Of a DNA stretch of 18,171 bases, positions 3,891 to 17,541 are shown piece by piece. The notes beneath the pieces were generated by a model. The model was not told where the DNA came from. It worked only from the letters and a program-made list of their open reading frames with translations, and made no database searches. Both the position numbers and the translations under genes were made by a program. Source of the stretch: Flavobacterium sp. (lineage in GTDB: Bacteria; Bacteroidota; Bacteroidia; Flavobacteriales; Flavobacteriaceae); assembly GCA_030682755.1 (NCBI GenBank), contig JAUXNR010000228.1:1-18171 (forward strand), in the 5' to 3' direction. Each line of letters begins with the position of its first letter. The first letter of the stretch is position 1.

Positions 3891-3917
3891 AACCCAAACG
3901 AAAGTTGGGTTTTTTTT
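3891..3917 (+). terminator. Rho-independent terminator
   Basis: AACCCAA (3891-3897) pairs with TTGGGTT (3905-3911) around a 7-base loop, and a run of eight T (3910-3917) follows. It lies 18 bases after the stop of the 136-residue gene. Confidence 0.85.
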
Positions 3918-3979
3918 GGCACTGTTGTGAAGTAGCAGTAGTGTTGAAACAACACAAAAAAAAACGCACTCAAAAAACA

Positions 3980-4003
3980 AACCTCAACAATGTTGGGGTT
4001 TTG
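3980..4003 (+). terminator. Second terminator-like hairpin
   Basis: AACCTCAAC (3980-3988) pairs with GTTGGGGTT (3992-4000) with one T.G pair and a 3-base loop, followed by a short T-rich stretch. It may be a backup terminator or a decayed copy of the one at 3891. The T-tract is weak. Confidence 0.5.
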
Positions 4004-4057
4004 TTCATGAATACCAGTACCTCAGCATTTTTCACTTGCCATTTTTCTGATGGAGTG

Positions 4058-4325
4058 TGTCATTCCGACGAAAGGAGGAATCCCATAATCCAAGTCACGC
4101 CCTGTTATGTCATCCCGCTAGATGTCGAAGACGAGATAGGGACCTCCTACGCAGTAGGCAGTCCAAAACAAAATCACTTAGCAATCGCCACCTTCATTAA
4201 CACAGCCCTCTGTTTAGTCATTCCAATTAATCGTAACGACATAATCAAAAGAGAGCCGACGAAGCAATCCCATAATCCAATTCACGCCGCGGCATGTCAT
4301 TCCGACGCAAGGAGGAATCCCATAA
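4058..4325. repeat. REP-like repeat array (GTCATTCCGACG / AAGGAGGAATCCC units)
   Basis: Two 31-base units at 4058-4088 and 4295-4325 are identical except for one base (A/C at unit position 14). Each contains the inverted pair ATTCC...GGAAT. A second shared stretch begins with CATAATCCAA, followed by G/T and TCACGCC (about 4084-4111 and 4270-4300). Two more decayed units lie between them: 4108-4170, with the small palindrome CCTACGCAGTAGG at 4146-4158, and 4218-4280. The apparent open frame through this region translates the repeat as CHSDERRNP and CHSDARRNP, which I take as spurious. The array ends 10 bases before the putative operator of the restriction-modification operon. Confidence 0.8.
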
Positions 4326-4335
4326 AGCTGAGCAA

Positions 4336-4402
4336 AATTATTCCAAAATGGAATAGCGAATTCTATTCACGAATATTGTATTATGGAATAATTCTTAATT
4401 CC
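4336..4402. promoter_or_regulatory. Putative operator (C-box-like) for the controller protein
   Basis: The 74 bases before the controller gene hold nested inverted repeats. ATTCCA (4340-4345) and TGGAAT (4349-4354) lie around AAA; GAATAG (4351-4356) and CTATTC (4363-4368); AATTATTCC (4336-4344) with GGAATAATT (4385-4393); and GGAAT (4385-4389) with ATTCC (4398-4402). Repeated palindromic boxes directly upstream of a small Xre-type gene are the usual layout of controller-protein operators in type II systems. I see no clear TAnnTTTG box here. The function is inferred from position and symmetry. Confidence 0.5.
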
Positions 4403-4409
4403 TAAAGAC

Positions 4410-4625
4410 ATGAATGAAAAAAAAATCAACCAAATCATTTCCTATCAATTAGTTAAAGCCCGAGAAGAATTAGGCTATACACAAATGAAAGTGCAAGAAG
4501 ATAAAATTATCAGTCAAAGTAATTTATCTAAGATTGAAAACGGAATGAAAAAAATTAGTGCAGCTAAACTTTTTTTATTGGCTGAATATTATAAAAAACC
4601 TGTTGAATACTTTTTTAAAAAATGA
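4410..4625 (+). CDS. Xre-type HTH controller (C) protein of the restriction-modification operon
   Basis: 71 residues, which is the usual size of restriction-modification controller proteins. One cro/C1-type helix-turn-helix fills the protein. Helices 2-3 run from about residue 22 to 45 (GYTQMKVQEDKIISQSN, then LSKIENGMKKIS), and the final helix ends in KKPVEYFFKK. As a dimer it would bind palindromic boxes and first activate, then repress, its own promoter, so that methylation precedes cutting. Its stop overlaps the methyltransferase start by 4 bases (ATGA), so the two are translationally coupled. It is the first gene of the six-gene operon. A generic phage-type repressor is the alternative, but the position makes the C-protein role likely. 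Confidence 0.85.
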   Translation: MNEKKINQIISYQLVKAREELGYTQMKVQEDKIISQSNLSKIENGMKKISAAKLFLLAEYYKKPVEYFFKK

Positions 4626-5887
4626 AAATGAAGGAGAAAATATCTATTGAAGAGTTTGATGGTAAAAGATTTAAAATTAAAATTTTTGAACCTGAATCAC
4701 TTAATGTAAAAAAAGCTGTAATCACTCACTATCTTCATAATATAGAAAATGGTGTTGCAAAACATTTTAAGAATGAGGCATTAAAATATATTGATGAAAT
4801 TATTGCTTATAAAAATTCAGAAGAAAAAATAAGTCTCGTTCAGGATTCTGCGATACAACAATTACTGTTTGAAGTTAATGACGTTCCTTTTCCTACTCCC
4901 AAAAATTACAAATTCAAGTTCATAGATTTATTTGCAGGAATTGGAGGTTTCAGATTAGCCATGCAAAACCTCGGAGGTAAATGTATTTTCACAAGTGAAT
5001 GGGACAAAGAAGCACAAAGAACTTATCGTGCAAATTTCGGTGAAGTACCTTTTGGTGACATCACAAAAGAACAAACTAAAGACTTTATACCTGATAATTT
5101 TGATGTTTTATGTGCCGGTTTTCCATGTCAGGCTTTTTCAATAGCAGGAAAAAGAGGTGGATTTGAAGATACACGTGGGACTTTGTTTTTTGATGTTGCT
5201 GAAATTATCAAAAGAAAAAAACCAAAAGCAATTTTTCTTGAAAATGTAAAAGGTCTGAGAAACCATGATAAAGGAAAAACATTAGCTACCATCTTAAATG
5301 TTTTAAGAGAAGATTTGGATTATTACGTTCCTGAACCTCAAATCATGAATGCGAAGAATTTTGGTGTTCCTCAAAACAGAGAACGAATATTCATTGTTGG
5401 TTTCAGAAAAGATTTAGGAATTACTCAATTTAACTATCCTGAATCAATAGATGACAATCCAATTTTAGAAGATGTTCTTGAAGAAAACGTAGTTTCAACA
5501 AAATACTATTTATCTTCTACTTATTTAAATACATTAAAAAATCACAAGGCTAGACATGCCAGTAAAGGAAACGGATTTGGTTACGAAATTATTCCTAACG
5601 ATGGTATTGCAAATGCTATAGTATGTGGTGGAATGGGAAGAGAAAGAAATTTAGTATATGATGACAGAATAACTGATTACAATCCCGTAACAAAAATTAC
5701 TGGAGAGGTAAACAGAGAGGGAATAAGAAAAATGACACCCAGAGAATGGGCAAGATTACAAGGCTTTCCTGATAATTATATAATCCCTGTAGCTGATGCT
5801 TCAGCATATAAACAATTTGGAAACTCAGTAGCGGTCCCTGCTATTCAGGCAACTGCTGAGAAAATCATTGAAAAACTAAACTTTTAA
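4622..5887 (+). CDS. DNA (cytosine-5-)-methyltransferase, M.HpaII-like, predicted CCGG specificity
   Basis: 421 residues. All key C5-methyltransferase motifs are visible. Motif I is FIDLFAGIGGFR (about 100-111, SAM binding), and motif IV is AGFPCQAFS (165-173) with catalytic Cys169. Motif VI is LENV (206-209), motif VIII QNRERIFIVGF (251-261), motif IX RKMTPREWARLQGFPD (369-384), and motif X YKQFGNSVAVPA (397-408). The target-recognition region (about 262-368) contains RHASKGNGFGYEIIP and GGMGRERNLV, phrases I recall as nearly shared with M.HpaII. With the HpaII-type nuclease next door this predicts C5 methylation within CCGG. An N-terminal extension of about 95 residues is longer than I recall for M.HpaII; a partly HTH-like role is possible but unproven. 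One base separates its stop from the endonuclease start. Confidence 0.95.
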   Translation: MKMKEKISIEEFDGKRFKIKIFEPESLNVKKAVITHYLHNIENGVAKHFKNEALKYIDEIIAYKNSEEKISLVQDSAIQQLLFEVNDVPFPTPKNYKFKFIDLFAGIGGFRLAMQNLGGKCIFTSEWDKEAQRTYRANFGEVPFGDITKEQTKDFIPDNFDVLCAGFPCQAFSIAGKRGGFEDTRGTLFFDVAEIIKRKKPKAIFLENVKGLRNHDKGKTLATILNVLREDLDYYVPEPQIMNAKNFGVPQNRERIFIVGFRKDLGITQFNYPESIDDNPILEDVLEENVVSTKYYLSSTYLNTLKNHKARHASKGNGFGYEIIPNDGIANAIVCGGMGRERNLVYDDRITDYNPVTKITGEVNREGIRKMTPREWARLQGFPDNYIIPVADASAYKQFGNSVAVPAIQATAEKIIEKLNF

Positions 5888-5888
5888 T

Positions 5889-6968
5889 ATGTTAACTGGA
5901 AACATTGGTGAGTGGAGTGAAATTTATACATTACTTAAACTTTTAAGTGATGGAAAATTAATACCCGGTGATGAAAATATTGAAAAAATAAACAATCTTT
6001 TTTATCCTATTATAAAAATACTTCGCTCTGAATCTAATGGAACATTTGAATACTATATAAATCAGGATATTGTTATTATATCAAATGACAAAGAATTACT
6101 TCGAGTGCCATTGTCTACATTTAAAGATAAAGCAACATTTTTACTTGAAAAAATAAAAGCTAATATTGACCGCACTTTTTCTGTTCCTGAAATTGAGGAT
6201 TTTATGAATGACATTAAATGCATTACACTAAAATCAAATTCTTTAGTAAAAACAGATATAAATATAGTAGTACATGATTTAAGAACAAATCAAACACCTT
6301 TATTGGGTTTCAGTATTAAATCTCAGCTTGGTCACCCGTCAACACTTTTGAATGCTGGTAAAACAACTAATTTTATTTATAAAATAGAAGGAGTTACTTT
6401 ATCCTTAGAAGAAATCAACTGGATTAATGCAATTGAAACTAAAAACAAGATTAGAGACCGAATTACTGCTGTTTTGAATAATGGAGGCGTTTTTCATTTT
6501 GAAGGAACTGAACAAAAAATTTTTTCAAATAATCTAACATTGATAGATAGTCTCTTACCAAAAATATTAGCTGAAATTTTATATACTTATTACACACAAA
6601 AGGATTCAAATTTGAATTCTTTAGTTAATAACATTCAAATTAATAATCCTTTAGCTTTCGACACTTCAGATAATCATCAATTTTATAGTTATAAAATAAA
6701 ACGTTTTTTAACGGATGTTGCATTGGGAATGATGCCCTCTAAAGTATGGTCAGGAGAACATGAAGCTACTGGTGGTTATCTAATTGTTAAAGAAGACGGT
6801 GAAATACTTTGCTATCATATTTATAATAAAAATGAATTTGAAAACTATCTTTTAAACAATACCAAGCTTGATACTGCAAGCAGTAAAAGACATGAATTTG
6901 GAAAAGTTTATTTAGAAAATCAAAGCTTATTCTTTAAACTGAATTTACAAATACGATTTATAAAATGA
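5889..6968 (+). CDS. HpaII-family type II restriction endonuclease (predicted CCGG)
   Basis: 359 residues, close to the size of R.HpaII. It opens with GNIGEWSEIYTLLKLLSDGKL (about residues 4-24), the characteristic start of this family. It ends with a conserved block of RFLTDVALGM (272-281), EATGGYLIVKEDG (292-304) and a final KLNLQIRF. A plausible PD-(D/E)xK-type core is Asp123 (KTDINIVV) followed by FSIKSQLG with Lys144, the Glu of the motif being replaced by Ser. The enzyme would cut unmethylated CCGG. Its stop overlaps the next start by 4 bases. Assignment to the HpaII family rests on these phrases and on the M.HpaII-like neighbour. The exact specificity is an inference. Confidence 0.88.
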   Translation: MLTGNIGEWSEIYTLLKLLSDGKLIPGDENIEKINNLFYPIIKILRSESNGTFEYYINQDIVIISNDKELLRVPLSTFKDKATFLLEKIKANIDRTFSVPEIEDFMNDIKCITLKSNSLVKTDINIVVHDLRTNQTPLLGFSIKSQLGHPSTLLNAGKTTNFIYKIEGVTLSLEEINWINAIETKNKIRDRITAVLNNGGVFHFEGTEQKIFSNNLTLIDSLLPKILAEILYTYYTQKDSNLNSLVNNIQINNPLAFDTSDNHQFYSYKIKRFLTDVALGMMPSKVWSGEHEATGGYLIVKEDGEILCYHIYNKNEFENYLLNNTKLDTASSKRHEFGKVYLENQSLFFKLNLQIRFIK

Positions 6969-9223
6969 GTGATGAATTAAAATTCAAAATAAGTTCAGGG
7001 CTTAAAAATATAATCGGTCGCGATCTAATTACCGATGAATATATTGCAATATTTGAGTTGGTGAAAAATTCATTTGATGCCCATGCAACTGATGTGGAGA
7101 TCGTCTTTGAAAATATCTTTTCAGAAAACGGAAAAATTATTGTCATGGATAATGGCAAAGGGATGAATAAAGATGACCTTTTGAATAAATGGCTTTTTGT
7201 AGCTTATTCTGCTAAAAAGGAAGGTACTGAAGATATCGATTATAGAGATAAAATAGGCAACCGTATTTATTATGCTGGAGCCAAAGGAATTGGTAGGTTC
7301 TCTTGTGATAAATTAGGAACTAATTTAAGATTAGTCTCAAGAAAAGATGAACCAAATTCCAAAATAGAACAAATACAAGTTGACTGGACAAAATTCGAAG
7401 AAAACGCAAAAGAAGAGTTTGTAAATATTTCTGTAGCCCATGATGAATTAGAAAATAATCCATCGAAATTTGAAGCAGGGACATACCTTGAAATCACAGG
7501 GTTAAGACCTGATGCGAGATGGGATGCCCATAAAATAATTAGACTGAAACATTCCTTATCAAAGCTCATAAATCCTTTTGAACCGAATGATAATCGCAAA
7601 TTTAAAATTAATGTGGTTGCAAATGAATTCAGAAAACAAGATGAGAGTCAGACAAATCCTTATTGGAAAATAAATGGATTTGTTGTAAATAACCTTCTTT
7701 CGATTTTAAAGAATAAAACTACTCATATTTTATCAGAAATATCAGATGATGGGCAAACAATCTCTACCGAATTATCGACAAATGGAATTTGGTTGTACAA
7801 AATTGTTGAACGAAATAACGATTACAGACTTTTATCTAATGTACTTGTCGAATTATATCATCTAGATAAAAGAGCAAGATATAACTTCACTAGATCAATG
7901 GGCGTGAGAGCACATGATTACGGCTCAGTCTTCCTTTATAAAAACAATATTCGTATTTATCCGTACGGAGAACCAGGAGAAGATTCCTTTTCACTAGACA
8001 CTAGACAACAAAGAAAAATTGGTAGTTATGTCGGCACAAGAGAATTAATTGGTAGAGTGGAAATTTCTGGCAATAACGACGAATTTAAAGAAACCACAAG
8101 CCGTGGAGATGGATTGGTAAAAAATGAAAGTTACTTTCAATTACAATCCTATTTAATTAATTCTGTTATTTCAAAGCTTGAAAATTATGTGACTAAATTT
8201 CTGAAGTTTGGAATAGATATAAAAAAGTTTGATAGTGCCGAAAGTAATTTGGAAGGTGTTGTAAAATATCTTTCAGGAGTTTCCAATAGTAACATTATTT
8301 CAATTGATTTTAACTCTAATATTTTGGAGATAATCGGGGTAAATCAAGAACAAAACAAAAGTGCAATAGCAATCTTAAATTCTATTGAAAATATTGCAAT
8401 CGAGTCTGGCAATAATCAACTTTTAGAGAATGTCAAGGAGATTAGACAACGACTTGAAGAAGCAGTCACTACTGCAGAAATTGCCGAAGAAGAAATAAAA
8501 GAAAAAGACAAAATAATTACAGAAAAAAATTCTGAAAACTTATTTTTAAAATCAGTAAAATCTCAAGATTTAGATGAAATAGTGAGTTTTATGCACAGTG
8601 TTGGAATTTCATCTGATATAATTGACAAATATGTAAATGGCCTTTATAAAAGGATTAACCGTGGAGAAAAAATCAGCAATGACGAACTTGCAAAAAAGTT
8701 AAGAGAAATAAGTTTAGAAAATAGAAAAATTTTAGCTGTATCACAATTTGCTACAAAAGCCAATTTTAAACTGTATTCCGAAGAGATTGAAATAGATATT
8801 ATTGAATTTATTGATGAATATGTTAGAAACATATTAAGTAGAATAAGATCTGAAGATATTACTATTGAATCAGTAAATGATAAGCAACTTAAATTTATCG
8901 CTAGTTTTAGACCTATTGAAATAACGATTATTATCGATAATTTTGTTAGTAATTCAGTTAGAGCAAAGGCAAAGTCATTTTTGATTAAGTACGAAATTAA
9001 TAATGATGAATTAACTATATCTTTTGAGGATGATGGTATAGGTATCCCTGACAATTCATTGAAAAATATTTTTGATATTGGCTATACGACAACCACTGGT
9101 TCAGGATTAGGGCTTTTTCATGTTAACAGTATTGTTTCTAAAACTGAAAACATGAGTTTAGAGATAAATAACAAAACCAACAAAGGAGTAACATTCATTC
9201 TTAAAATAAAAAACGATGGCTAA
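6965..9223 (+). CDS. Dual-GHKL ATPase: MORC-like N-terminal ATPase fused to a histidine-kinase-like C-terminal ATPase
   Basis: 752 residues, no signal peptide or membrane segment. The N-terminal GHKL domain has the N box ELVKNSFDA (31-39), MDNGKGM (61-67) and the lid AGAKGIGRFS (104-113), as in MORC/Hsp90/MutL-type ATPases. A transducer-like middle region follows, with SVFLYKNNIRIYPYGEPGED (321-340). A coiled coil covers about 485-530. Next is a helical segment, DEIVSFMHSVGIS (537-549), that could be a DHp-like dimerisation helix with His544. The C-terminal GHKL domain is of histidine-kinase type: IIDNFVSNSVRA (656-667), FEDDGIGIP (687-695), IFDIGYTTT (702-710), GSGLGLFHV (712-720). It overlaps the endonuclease by 4 bases and the receiver gene by 8. 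MORC-related GHKL ATPases are known near prokaryotic restriction-modification genes. The two-ATPase arrangement in an HpaII-type operon is what stands out. Function unproven. Confidence 0.88.
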   Translation: MSDELKFKISSGLKNIIGRDLITDEYIAIFELVKNSFDAHATDVEIVFENIFSENGKIIVMDNGKGMNKDDLLNKWLFVAYSAKKEGTEDIDYRDKIGNRIYYAGAKGIGRFSCDKLGTNLRLVSRKDEPNSKIEQIQVDWTKFEENAKEEFVNISVAHDELENNPSKFEAGTYLEITGLRPDARWDAHKIIRLKHSLSKLINPFEPNDNRKFKINVVANEFRKQDESQTNPYWKINGFVVNNLLSILKNKTTHILSEISDDGQTISTELSTNGIWLYKIVERNNDYRLLSNVLVELYHLDKRARYNFTRSMGVRAHDYGSVFLYKNNIRIYPYGEPGEDSFSLDTRQQRKIGSYVGTRELIGRVEISGNNDEFKETTSRGDGLVKNESYFQLQSYLINSVISKLENYVTKFLKFGIDIKKFDSAESNLEGVVKYLSGVSNSNIISIDFNSNILEIIGVNQEQNKSAIAILNSIENIAIESGNNQLLENVKEIRQRLEEAVTTAEIAEEEIKEKDKIITEKNSENLFLKSVKSQDLDEIVSFMHSVGISSDIIDKYVNGLYKRINRGEKISNDELAKKLREISLENRKILAVSQFATKANFKLYSEEIEIDIIEFIDEYVRNILSRIRSEDITIESVNDKQLKFIASFRPIEITIIIDNFVSNSVRAKAKSFLIKYEINNDELTISFEDDGIGIPDNSLKNIFDIGYTTTTGSGLGLFHVNSIVSKTENMSLEINNKTNKGVTFILKIKNDG

Positions 9224-9632
9224 AAAATTTACTAAAGCAATTGATATTGTATGGGTTGAAGATAATAAACAATACCTACCTTCAATTGAAGATGATTTGA
9301 AGGAAATAAAAAAAGAAAATAAAATTGAACTTTATATTACTGAGGAAAATGATTCAACAAAATTCATTAACATAGCGGGTAATATTCCGTCATCATTGGT
9401 TTATTGTGTTGATTATAACCTACACAATAATGGAAAAGGAATAAATGGTGATCAGGTAATAAAAAACATTCGTGCTTTAAATAAAGATTGCGTTATAGTT
9501 TTTTATAGTATTAATTTGGTTCAAGAAGAATTAAGAAAATTAATTGGTAACAATGACCCAAATACATACTGTGTTTACCGTCCAAATATTATACAAAAAT
9601 TAAGACAGCTTATTGAAGAAGGGATTATCTAA
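9216..9632 (+). CDS. Stand-alone receiver (REC)-like protein, degenerate at the conserved lysine
   Basis: 138 residues forming one alpha/beta domain with the receiver plan. Strand 1 is IDIVWVEDN with acidic pair Glu15-Asp16. Strand 3 is LVYCVDYNL with candidate phospho-acceptor Asp66. Strand 4 is CVIVFYSIN with Ser98 in the Thr/Ser switch position. Strand 5 is TYCVYRPN, where Arg122 replaces the near-invariant Lys. There is no output domain. It starts 8 bases inside the dual-GHKL gene, so it is most likely its partner. It could be a phospho-receiver or a pseudo-receiver that binds the ATPase without phosphotransfer. Two bases separate it from vsr. Confidence 0.75.
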   Translation: MAKKFTKAIDIVWVEDNKQYLPSIEDDLKEIKKENKIELYITEENDSTKFINIAGNIPSSLVYCVDYNLHNNGKGINGDQVIKNIRALNKDCVIVFYSINLVQEELRKLIGNNDPNTYCVYRPNIIQKLRQLIEEGII

Positions 9633-9634
9633 TT

Positions 9635-10042
9635 ATGGACCGCCACACCCCATCACAACGCTCCAAAAACATGCGTGCCGTCAAAAGCAAAGGCACGAAA
9701 CCGGAAGTGATGTTAAGTAAAGCATTATGGCATTTAGGGTATCGATACAGAAAAAACAATAAAACAGTTTTTGGAAAACCTGATTTAACGTTTAAAAAAT
9801 ATAAACTCGCTGTTTTTGTAGATAGCGAGTTTTTTCATGGTAAAGATTGGCAAATCAGAAAACACGATATAAAAAGCAATCAAGAGTTCTGGCATAAAAA
9901 AATTGAAAGAAATATCGAAAGAGATAAAGAGGTCAATGAATTACTTAATAATGAAGGGTGGAAAATTTTACGTTTTTGGGATAAAGAAATCATAAAAAAT
10001 TTAGAAACCTGTATCAATAAAATAATAACTCATTTAAAATAG
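9635..10042 (+). CDS. vsr: Very-short-patch mismatch repair endonuclease (Vsr)
   Basis: 135 residues, the normal size. The start is typical: RSKNMRAVKSKGTKPEVML, containing the conserved Glu24. Catalytic Asp50 lies in KPDLTF. FVDSEFFHG (61-69) aligns with the E. coli FTHGCFWHH stretch, so the E. coli Thr-His active-site pair is replaced by Val-Asp and the zinc ligands are mostly missing. I believe such variants are common in the family. EFWHKKIERNIERD (84-97) and GWKILRFWDKEI (108-119) complete the signature. Vsr nicks 5' of the T in T:G mismatches that arise when methylated C deaminates, here presumably in CCGG. Vsr genes are known in HpaII-type systems. The first 75 bases are about 55% GC against roughly 30% for the rest of the gene, which is odd. 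Confidence 0.92.
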   Translation: MDRHTPSQRSKNMRAVKSKGTKPEVMLSKALWHLGYRYRKNNKTVFGKPDLTFKKYKLAVFVDSEFFHGKDWQIRKHDIKSNQEFWHKKIERNIERDKEVNELLNNEGWKILRFWDKEIIKNLETCINKIITHLK

Positions 10043-15892: not shown

Positions 15893-15906
15893 TAATATTG
15901 CAATAT
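15893..15906 (+). promoter_or_regulatory. ArsR operator overlapping a promoter-like box
   Basis: A perfect 12-base palindrome ATATTGCAATAT (15895-15906) lies 13-24 bases before the arsR ATG. It overlaps TAATATTG (15893-15900), one base off the Bacteroidota TAnnTTTG box. A repressor site placed on the promoter is the expected layout for arsR autoregulation. Confidence 0.55.
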
Positions 15907-15918
15907 AATAATACAATC

Positions 15919-16251
15919 ATGGGAGCCACAAAAACAGATCACTTTTCAGACCAGCAAAACGAACTGGCCATTTTAACCAAAGCCTTGGGACATCCCGCCC
16001 GAATTGCCATTATAGAATACTTGATGAAGGTGGAGAGTTGCATTTGTGGCGACATTGTTAACGAATTGCCGTTAGCACAGCCTACTGTTTCCCAACACCT
16101 GAAAGAACTAAAAAACGCCGGTCTCATCAAAGGAAACGTTGAAGGTGCATCCATTTGTTATTGCATAAATGAAACAGGCTTTGACAAAATCAAACACTTT
16201 TTTCAAACCGTAAACGACCACTTGGATGACAAAAGAATACAATGTTGTTAA
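15919..16251 (+). CDS. arsR: ArsR/SmtB family arsenic-responsive repressor
   Basis: 110 residues from the ATG. The winged helix-turn-helix is clear: LTKALGHPARIAIIEYLMKVESCICGDIVNELPLAQPTVSQHLKELKNAGLI (19-70). The Cys41-x-Cys43 pair in ESCICGDIV matches the helix-3 arsenite site of ArsR. Extra cysteines are Cys80, Cys82 and a terminal Cys109-Cys110. It should repress the operon until arsenite binds. A TTG 21 bases upstream is in frame but lies inside the operator palindrome, so I chose the ATG. It heads the arsenic operon. Confidence 0.93.
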   Translation: MGATKTDHFSDQQNELAILTKALGHPARIAIIEYLMKVESCICGDIVNELPLAQPTVSQHLKELKNAGLIKGNVEGASICYCINETGFDKIKHFFQTVNDHLDDKRIQCC

Positions 16252-16274
16252 AAGATAAATAGTGTTTCTCGTCT

Positions 16275-16308
16275 GTCTTCCCTCCTTTGGAGGGTTTGGG
16301 GAGGAAAA
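16275..16308 (+). repeat. Hairpin/purine-rich repeat before the DUF6428 gene (copy 1)
   Basis: CCCTCC (16280-16285) and GGAGGG (16289-16294) form a perfect stem with a TTT loop, followed by GGGGAGGAAAA that ends 27 bases before the ATG. It is related to the elements at 16868 and 17604. Confidence 0.7.
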
Positions 16309-16335
16309 AACTTAACCCAGAAAAATTCAAAAAAA

Positions 16336-16806
16336 ATGAAACTATCACAAATCAAAAACGTCCTTTCTAACTTAGAAACCGTTACTTTCCAGCTACCAAA
16401 CGGAACCTTTGTTCCCGAACATTTTCACGTAACAGAAGTTGGCTTAATCACCAAAAACTTCATTGATTGCGGCGGTACCGTTCGCAAAGAAACCGTTGTC
16501 AACTTCCAATTGTGGGATGCCAACGATTACGACCATCGTTTGAAACCACAAAAATTAGCCAAGATCATAGTCTTATCCGAAAAAGCATTAGGCATCGAAG
16601 ACCATGAAATTGAAGTAGAATACCAAGGTGAAACCATCGGTAAATTTGATCTGGATTTCAACGGAGAAACCTTTATGCTAGTCAATAAAAAAACTGCTTG
16701 TTTAGCTGAAGATCAATGCGGCATTCCAACCCAAAAACCAAAAGTTAGACTATCAGACATGCAAAACCAATCCGGATCTTGCACACCGGGTGGTGGCTGT
16801 TGTTAA
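16336..16806 (+). CDS. DUF6428 family protein of the arsenic operon
   Basis: 156 residues, soluble. It starts MKLSQIKNVLSNLETVTFQLPNGTFVPEHFHVTEVGLI, a pattern I recognise from DUF6428 proteins encoded in Bacteroidota ars operons. Later come FIDCGGTVRKETVVNFQLW (42-60) and HEIEVEYQGETIGKFDL (90-106). Cysteines at 45, 122, 128, 149 and a terminal Cys155-Cys156 in a Gly-rich tail (SCTPGGGCC) could bind arsenite or metal. The function is unproven. Placed between arsR and the reductase, it is probably an accessory arsenic-handling protein. Confidence 0.88.
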   Translation: MKLSQIKNVLSNLETVTFQLPNGTFVPEHFHVTEVGLITKNFIDCGGTVRKETVVNFQLWDANDYDHRLKPQKLAKIIVLSEKALGIEDHEIEVEYQGETIGKFDLDFNGETFMLVNKKTACLAEDQCGIPTQKPKVRLSDMQNQSGSCTPGGGCC

Positions 16807-16835
16807 AATAAACCAAAATTGATTTTATACGCTAC

Positions 16836-16860
16836 TGTCAGGCTAAGCTTGCCGAAGCCC
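16836..16860 (+). repeat. TGTCAGGCTAAGCTTGCCGAAG-type dispersed repeat
   Basis: This 25-base word closely resembles the widespread bacterial intergenic element GTCAGGCTGAGCTTGTCGAAG (recalled), with two substitutions. It lies in the 108-base gap between the DUF6428 and reductase genes and contains an AAGCTT-centred near-palindrome. Confidence 0.55.
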
Positions 16861-16867
16861 CACATCA

Positions 16868-16899
16868 CGTCTCCTTTTGAGGGGGTCGGGGGAGGAAAA
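16868..16899 (+). repeat. Hairpin/purine-rich repeat before the reductase gene (copy 2)
   Basis: CGTCTCCTTTTGAGGGGG followed by TCGGGGGAGGAAAA, ending 16 bases before the ATG. The purine end is the same as in the copies at 16275 and 17604. Confidence 0.7.
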
Positions 16900-16914
16900 C
16901 TAAAAACAAAAAAT

Positions 16915-17541
16915 ATGACCACACCAATCCTATTCCAACAAATCGAAACAACCCTAAAAAGTCTCGATTTCACAACCATTTCATCTGAACGAAAAGAAAT
17001 CCTCCAACCCTTAGTTGACTTCATTCAGTCAAAGGTTACGGATAAAAAAGAAATACGCCTCAACTTAATTTGTACTCACAATTCACGCAGAAGTCATTTG
17101 TCTCAAGTATGGGCACAAACAGCGGCAACCTATTATAACATACCGAATGTGTTTTGTTATTCAGGAGGCACAGAAGCAACCGCTATGTTTCCTATGGCAG
17201 CAAAAACTTTAGAAAAGGCAGGATTTCAAATCCAAACTATTGCTGAGGGAACCAATCCGATTTACGCCATTAAATATGCAACAAACACGCATCCGATTAT
17301 TGGATTTTCCAAAACCTATGACGATGCCTTCAACCCACAAAGTGAATTTGCCGCCATCATGACCTGCTCACAAGCCGATGGAGGATGTCCGTTCATTGCC
17401 GGAGCCGAAAAAAGAATACCAATTACTTATGAAGACCCAAAAGCATTTGACAACACTCCACAACAAGCAGCAAAATACGAAGAACGCAGCCTTCAAATTG
17501 CCACCGAAATGAGCTATGTTTTTTCGCAGGTAAAATTGTAA
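16915..17541 (+). CDS. LMW-phosphatase-like arsenate reductase (ArsC-type protein)
   Basis: 208 residues. The phosphatase-type P-loop C-x5-R-S is visible as CTHNSRRS (Cys53, Arg59) after strand RLNLI. The late EDP (Asp174-Pro175) is the expected general-acid motif. Additional cysteines Cys151 and Cys158 (MTCSQADGGCP) could serve as relay thiols. At 208 residues it is longer than classical thioredoxin-coupled ArsC (about 135). It fits the Bacteroidota 'protein-tyrosine-phosphatase/arsenate reductase' group, with an N-terminal helical extension of about 45 residues. It would reduce arsenate to arsenite for the exporter downstream. A longer frame from 16819 exists, but its added part translates the intergenic repeats, so the ATG at 16915 is preferred. 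Confidence 0.9.
   Translation: MTTPILFQQIETTLKSLDFTTISSERKEILQPLVDFIQSKVTDKKEIRLNLICTHNSRRSHLSQVWAQTAATYYNIPNVFCYSGGTEATAMFPMAAKTLEKAGFQIQTIAEGTNPIYAIKYATNTHPIIGFSKTYDDAFNPQSEFAAIMTCSQADGGCPFIAGAEKRIPITYEDPKAFDNTPQQAAKYEERSLQIATEMSYVFSQVKL

Follow-up and report, generated by a model that had tools for sequence, protein, structure and literature searches.

A dual-GHKL protein and a stand-alone receiver form an optional cassette in an HpaII-type restriction-modification operon of Flavobacterium sp.

Type II restriction enzymes are usually portrayed as working without ATP and without a sensor. Detocs, a phage defense system, is made up of kinase and receiver proteins and has a toxic effector domain. 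The accessible part of Iyer et al. 2008 (PMC2292703) describes MORC and paraMORC GHKL ATPases of restriction-modification (R-M) systems, which occur with helicases and nucleases. HEPN (Ymh) domains fused to paraMORC ATPases near R-M genes appear in the accessible part of Anantharaman et al. 2013 (PMC3710099). Two-component genes are placed in some McrBC operons by the available text on CoCoNuTs (PMC11090510). HATPase and REC stand among the abbreviations of predicted, not validated, systems in the DefensePredictor paper (PMC13092281), whose available text does not show which system is meant. A protein with HATPase_c_3, DHp-like and HATPase_c domains and an adjacent receiver-like gene is given in the accessible text of Bellieny-Rabelo et al. 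2021 (PMC8011034). According to that text, this HEF_HK/Response_reg_2 pair lies near C5-methyltransferases, and Vsr is often found downstream of the receiver-like gene. Here we describe a dual-GHKL protein and an adjoining receiver inside an HpaII-type R-M operon. The operon was found on an 18,171-nucleotide stretch of Flavobacterium sp. DNA (assembly GCA_030682755.1, contig JAUXNR010000228.1), called the window below.

The pair was read, with moderate confidence, as a soluble two-component-type relay. As a cassette, it would be mobile and optional, would move together with C5-methyltransferases and would have a nuclease-type output. The domain identities, motif conservation, gene order and patchy occurrence behind this reading were taken from sequence and structure models. 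The family set used for comparison comprised the window and the 80 best among 509 confirmed genome loci (n = 81), and class shares hold for these near relatives. Genes at these loci were called with a simple script that takes the longest open reading frame (ORF).

The dual-GHKL protein contains HATPase_c_3 (PF13589) at residues 27-173 (E 2.4e-27) and HATPase_c (PF02518) at residues 652-749 (E 1e-22). N35 and N663 are N in 81/81 aligned family proteins. These results bear out the first-pass annotation, which had been made from the letters of the window and had described two complete GHKL motif sets in one protein. The GHKL residues of the N-terminal half are N35, D62, G64, G66, G108 and G110. 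D62 and all of these glycines, like G714 and G716, show no variation across the two main classes (70 loci). A Foldseek search with the model of the protein matched SMCHD1 (6mw7, E 1e-11) and MutL (1nhh, E 5e-11), and the Hsp90 fold was matched too. PMS1 was matched by profile (E 2.4e-6, profile positions 19-70). The model of the N-terminal half has moderate confidence, with values below 50 at residues 78-112. PF13589, the SMCHD1 and MutL matches and this model point to an N-terminal GHKL domain with an S5-like part, as in MORC and paraMORC proteins.

A two-helix DHp-like hairpin with the invariant H544 (kept in 81/81 aligned homologs) sits between the two ATPases. This is an addition to the earlier description. 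With this hairpin, the C-terminal unit resembles a whole histidine-kinase core: DHp and catalytic ATPase (CA) parts, the conserved His and the N and G boxes. The MORC-like front and histidine-kinase-like back proposed earlier agree with the fold matches and with this core. The GHKL gene is under purifying selection. Its ratio of nonsynonymous to synonymous polymorphism (pN/pS) was 0.12-0.25 in three pairs, whose synonymous sites are saturated or nearly so.

The receiver of the window contains 138 amino acids (aa). It had no Pfam match above noise, and its single sequence retrieved nothing informative from the PDB. Solved response regulators were found with a 13-row profile of the window receiver and 12 short relatives (best E 6.3e-7), which upholds the call of a receiver-like partner gene. 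The same profile matches the receiver half of long relatives (hhalign, 99.7%). The receiver retains the acidic pair E15/D16, the candidate phospho-acceptor D66 (9411-9413) and S98, and the phospho-site is kept in 70 loci. No output or DNA-binding domain was found in the window receiver. A separate REC-HEPN partner elsewhere in the same genome was considered and rejected; the 8 matches in this assembly (950 contigs, 96% complete) all fall within the REC part.

The window family resembles the HEF_HK/Response_reg_2 pair in domain order, in the adjoining receiver-like gene and in the company of a C5-methyltransferase and Vsr. As in that pair, the two linked genes lie beside a C5-methyltransferase. 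The front halves of the two families are homologous (hhalign 100%, E 3.9e-39, 373 columns), and the kinase ATPases match at 99.6%. The HEF_HK model PF19191 had no match in the window at E<=1, in 0/30 relatives at E<=0.01 and none in the whole genome. The Response_reg_2 model PF19192 was absent from the window. For 48 long receivers, 25 of 50 matching families were listed without it, which limits it to at most 1/48 at E<=0.1. It also had no match in the genome of the window, but control genomes gave none either. At the phospho-His box, the window has H-S and most relatives have H-Q or H-H, in contrast to H-E-F in HEF_HK. Four HEF loci (L177-L180) were taken whole from 198 genomes. Their GHKL proteins are 967-1001 aa long, and their partners, with 528-575 aa, contain no Rx4H. 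These partners matched the receivers of the window family weakly (69%) and its tails not at all. A 354-368 aa gene lies just 5' of the GHKL gene at these four loci, and the HEF partner has a long C-terminal part. Filing the pair under HEF_HK/Response_reg_2 was rejected. PF19191 and PF19192 were missed while the front halves are clearly homologous, which makes the pair a sister family to the published one and, by model, not a member.

With the MORC and paraMORC proteins of the accessible part of PMC2292703, the window shares the N-terminal GHKL and S5-like half, the methyltransferase and Vsr neighbors and mobile behavior. It differs in its histidine-kinase core and receiver partner, neither of which that part names for paraMORC. 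No superfamily II (SFII) helicase was found among the six operon proteins, and ResIII occurred in 1/75 neighbors of relatives (25 of 64 families listed). The BbrUII/HgiDII restriction enzymes (NF050001) have a related GHKL front (E 1.6e-19, residues 28-229); this match scores 69.9 bits against a cut-off of 550 and ends after the front part. The GHKL and HEPN logic near R-M genes is shared with the paraMORC-HEPN proteins of PMC3710099, in its accessible part. There the HEPN domain is on the ATPase; here it is on a separate receiver, in relatives only. Detocs was not listed in PADLOC scans, to which the sequence comparison with it is limited. The first-pass annotation, which knew of no described HpaII-type system with such a module, was not upheld on this point as worded. 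A comparable two-ATPase and receiver-like pair near R-M genes is present in the accessible text of PMC8011034, but no description of a dual-GHKL/receiver pair in an HpaII system was found in the literature searched. HpaII does not occur in the main text of PMC8011034, as far as it is accessible. A REC-HEPN fusion with a GHKL kinase was not found described in the open-licence literature.

A gene of 100-400 aa lies directly 3' of the GHKL gene on the same strand at 75/81 loci, overlapping it in 57. Of the loci, 61 encode a long receiver that has the motif R(N/D/Q)xx(A/G/V)H, and 5 encode a long receiver that lacks this strict motif. Short receivers were counted at 9 loci (6 with HpaII, including the window), and 6 loci had no receiver call. 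One of these six, L018, has a receiver cut by the contig end. The RNxxAH-type motif of the long receivers (61/66) lies in a HEPN-like tail. A model of one long-receiver member has an all-helical fold with Rx4H, and the R and H are present in 48/48 aligned proteins. HEPN families were matched by 7, 5 and 4 of 47 tails at E<=1 (best E 1.5e-6; the member shown in full was below the gathering score). The VIA-align comparison of a long receiver was dominated by receiver domains and barely probed the C-terminal fold. PADLOC gave the GHKL proteins generic type II labels, and 3/48 long receivers received the candidate label PDC-M60B. Plasmids (E<=1e-30) and phages (E<=1e-10) contained partial front-half matches only, with 2 records each.

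A methyltransferase related to that of the window is encoded at 75/81 loci (flanks <=7 kb) and is directly upstream in 59/81. Homologs found mostly away from R-M genes had been named as grounds for giving up the proposed link to restriction; this was checked and did not hold. Vsr is encoded at 13 of 81 loci. The neighbor scan covered 75 of 77 listed genes; contig-edge pieces of L023 and L045 were dropped. HpaII is carried by 6/81 loci, and the receiver stands alone there.

Other arrangements were seen in the family. Two adjoining genes of 218-247 aa follow the GHKL gene and replace the long receiver at L059 (9325-10765), L068 (6621-7998) and L073 (9286-10648). Perhaps this is another output type. 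HhH-GPD-type glycosylase genes lie near the methyltransferase in 4 cases among the 75 neighbors; the L068 gene at 2089-2775 was in the scanned set, with its own match not displayed. The one at L006 (9727-10389) was recognized by eye. These glycosylases perhaps stand in for Vsr on deaminated 5-methylcytosine. L060, L072, L075 and L077 form a Pseudomonadota branch of the GHKL family, with no receiver gene called directly downstream.

We infer that DNA is the signal of the relay, that phosphate is transferred, that relatives act through an RNase, and what the free receiver targets. The MutL/MORC-like ATPase clamp would be the input and is fused to the histidine-kinase core. The core may autophosphorylate on H544, and the phosphate would pass to D66 of the neighboring receiver. 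A DNA-state signal is suggested by the type of the front ATPase and its frequent methyltransferase company. When the clamp meets abnormal DNA (e.g., unmethylated, nicked or cut), a toxic nuclease would be released as the usual output in relatives. This output is most likely a toxic nuclease because the receiver carries a HEPN-like, probable RNase, tail in most near relatives. The window receiver has no output domain and presumably acts by binding a partner. R.HpaII or its methyltransferase are the nearest candidates for this target.

Several observations weigh against the relay as read here. The acidic residue after the His in HisKA-type kinases is replaced by S545 in the window, and D was found there in 2/81 only (L011 and L027). 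This residue is Q or H in 61/81 and otherwise S/T and others. The conserved Lys after beta-5 is lacking in the window receiver, which has R122 at the apparent place. R, F or Q occupies this position in the 9 short receivers (loose alignment). Receiver pN/pS ranges from 0.15 to 0.73 among pairs; the 0.73 comes from one pair. The tail profile matched no solved HEPN chain in the PDB. Among the 5 long receivers without the strict motif, L058 keeps the R and H. In addition, most HpaII genes examined have no such pair next to them. The genus survey of 348 genomes contained 30 with HpaII and the pair in 2, the genome of the window and G538, whose locus seems identical to L001; loci in this count span about 1.5 kb on each side (L135 stops 90 bases past the endonuclease, L153 and L155 about 400), and partial or broken endonuclease genes are included in the 30 (L148, L157-L161). 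Pair-bearing endonucleases, the remnant described below included, need at least 5 changes on their tree, in which long branches meet and the pair label was equally clustered in 61/500 shuffles. The six endonucleases with a whole pair reject one clade in the approximately unbiased (AU) test (p 1.4e-54). Between the window and L063, identity is 77% for the methyltransferase, 75% for GHKL, 66% for the receiver, 65% for Vsr and only 46% for the endonuclease. The 46% of the endonuclease against 75% for GHKL does not indicate tight coevolution. HpaII is absent from L005, L006, L008, L169, L170 and L172, which have short receivers too, so the target of a free receiver need not be HpaII. The strict rule that a short receiver means HpaII is present was rejected on the same six loci.

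The earlier view of the pair as a feature of HpaII systems does not fit these counts (6/81 family loci and 2/30 HpaII-bearing genus genomes). A phylum sample contained a PF09561 match at E 0.001 in 11/395 genomes, 10 of them over the cut-off. Among its HpaII genomes, the pair was present in the genome of the window only, and a remnant was present in G182. This remnant locus (L162, 5660-7117) encodes a full-length endonuclease of 359 aa, 64% identical to that of the window, and a methyltransferase of 422 aa. Beside them are scars of GHKL residues 1-65 and the last, C-terminal, part of the receiver. L162 is likely a natural deletion of the cassette. Vsr can directly follow the endonuclease in pair-free systems (8 bases in L154), in the place that the pair takes in the window. 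The first-pass proposal that the pair may gate or back up restriction is not supported as worded: the L162 remnants beside full-length R-M genes and the endonuclease scatter on the tree suggest that HpaII does not need the pair. The pair is an optional, patchily occurring cassette in HpaII operons. L152 and L155 each contain a single frame of about 650 aa that matches both the methyltransferase and the HpaII endonuclease of the window; these are possible fusions of the two.

The rarity in the genus, the L162 remnants, the endonuclease scatter and the low endonuclease identity to L063 would also fit a hitchhiker. The pair would then be an independent cassette, defensive or selfish, for which the R-M operon is only a means of co-transcription and spread, with no action on HpaII or the methyltransferase. 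This alternative is rather unlikely. At the 6 HpaII loci, the GHKL proteins group together on their tree (1 change, SH-aLRT 95; quick tree without mixture model), so the pair is not randomly spread over R-M types. The cassette of the window also has no effector fused to its receiver, and no REC-HEPN protein was found elsewhere in its 950-contig assembly.

An ATP-driven DNA remodeler in the paraMORC sense is doubtful. Its front ATPase would loop or clamp DNA for cleavage, the kinase half would be a dimerizer or second ATPase, and the receiver would be structural, with no phosphotransfer. This agrees with the MutL, SMCHD1 and Hsp90 fold matches, with the proposal for MORC/paraMORC in the accessible part of PMC2292703, and with the atypical residue after the His and the missing Lys. 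Neither H544 and N663 (81/81) nor the phospho-site kept in 70 loci would be needed, however, and most loci have a HEPN-like tail on the receiver. Transcriptional control of the R-M operon by the relay, as by a classical two-component regulator, is very unlikely: a helix-turn-helix (HTH) gene and an inverted repeat stand at the operon start, and CapK/CapS shows that GHKL kinases can control defense operons via repressor phosphorylation (PMC13373217, accessible part), but the receiver yielded no match to a DNA-binding domain, and long receivers end in a HEPN-like domain.

The operon spans 4410-10042, with all genes co-directional in the order HTH, C5-methyltransferase, HpaII endonuclease, dual-GHKL, receiver and Vsr (Table 1). 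The adjoining PF09561 endonuclease and C5-methyltransferase identify it as an HpaII type II R-M system. A 1-base gap separates these two genes. The endonuclease and GHKL genes overlap by 4 bases, the GHKL and receiver genes share 8 bases, and a 2-base gap precedes vsr, all as first described. Chance ORFs were rejected; the operon genes are backed by family models or conserved synteny. The operon lies in a low-GC block (0.27-0.33, versus 0.36-0.43 elsewhere; 1-kb bins of the window).

Table 1. Features of the R-M operon in the window
Feature	Coordinates	Strand	Basis
Imperfect 20-nt inverted repeat, candidate operator (putative function)	4336-4355 and 4374-4393		Arms 85% complementary; 5' of HTH gene
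XRE-type HTH protein, 71 aa, candidate R-M controller (putative role)	4410..4625	+	PF01381 E 9.7e-11
C5-cytosine DNA methyltransferase, 421 aa	4622..5887	+	PF00145 DNA_methylase E 2.4e-105; TIGR00675 over cut-off
HpaII-type restriction endonuclease, 359 aa, full length	5889..6968	+	PF09561 RE_HpaII E 3.9e-137, profile 2-359 of 359
Dual-GHKL protein, 752 aa	6965..9223	+	ORF, Pfam matches and structure model
N-terminal ATPase half, about residues 1-371: GHKL and S5/transducer-like middle	6965..8077	+	PF13589, Foldseek, profile match
DHp-like helical hairpin, residues 537-598; candidate phospho-acceptor H544 at 8594-8596	8573..8758	+	
Histidine-kinase catalytic ATPase, residues 608-752: N659/N663, DDGIGI, GSGLGL	8786..9220	+	
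Stand-alone receiver domain, 138 aa	9216..9632	+	Profile comparison and key residues
Vsr mismatch endonuclease, 135 aa	9635..10042	+	PF03852 E 6.4e-32; TIGR00632 over cut-off

Two copies of a 31-nt element (TGTCATTCCGACG...), 97% identical, lie at 4058-4325 between a 136-aa gene and the operon. Its 22-base core has six sites genome-wide at <=2 mismatches, and a reversed control had none. A 166-aa ORF (3905-4405) overlaps the copies and is probably no gene. The window also contains a probable arsenic block (15898-17541). It encodes an ArsR-type regulator (PF01022), a DUF6428 protein and a 240-aa protein that is arsenate reductase-like by eye, with no Pfam match at E<=1e-5.

The pair may also be read as a phosphorelay with exchangeable nuclease outputs, which we consider unlikely. 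Its clamp and kinase would read DNA methylation or integrity, and the receiver family would switch on a fused HEPN RNase in most near relatives or, in the branch of the window, a type II endonuclease in trans. If so, HpaII would be, to our knowledge, the first known type II restriction enzyme under two-component control. 

A conserved kinase-receiver cassette that goes with C5-methyltransferases and has either a probable RNase fused to it or an endonuclease next door would join restriction, DNA-state sensing and abortive infection in one relay. The paired-GHKL proteins near R-M genes, which the accessible texts of 2008 and 2021 predict without tested function, would gain an output open to testing, namely HEPN toxicity in relatives with long receivers.

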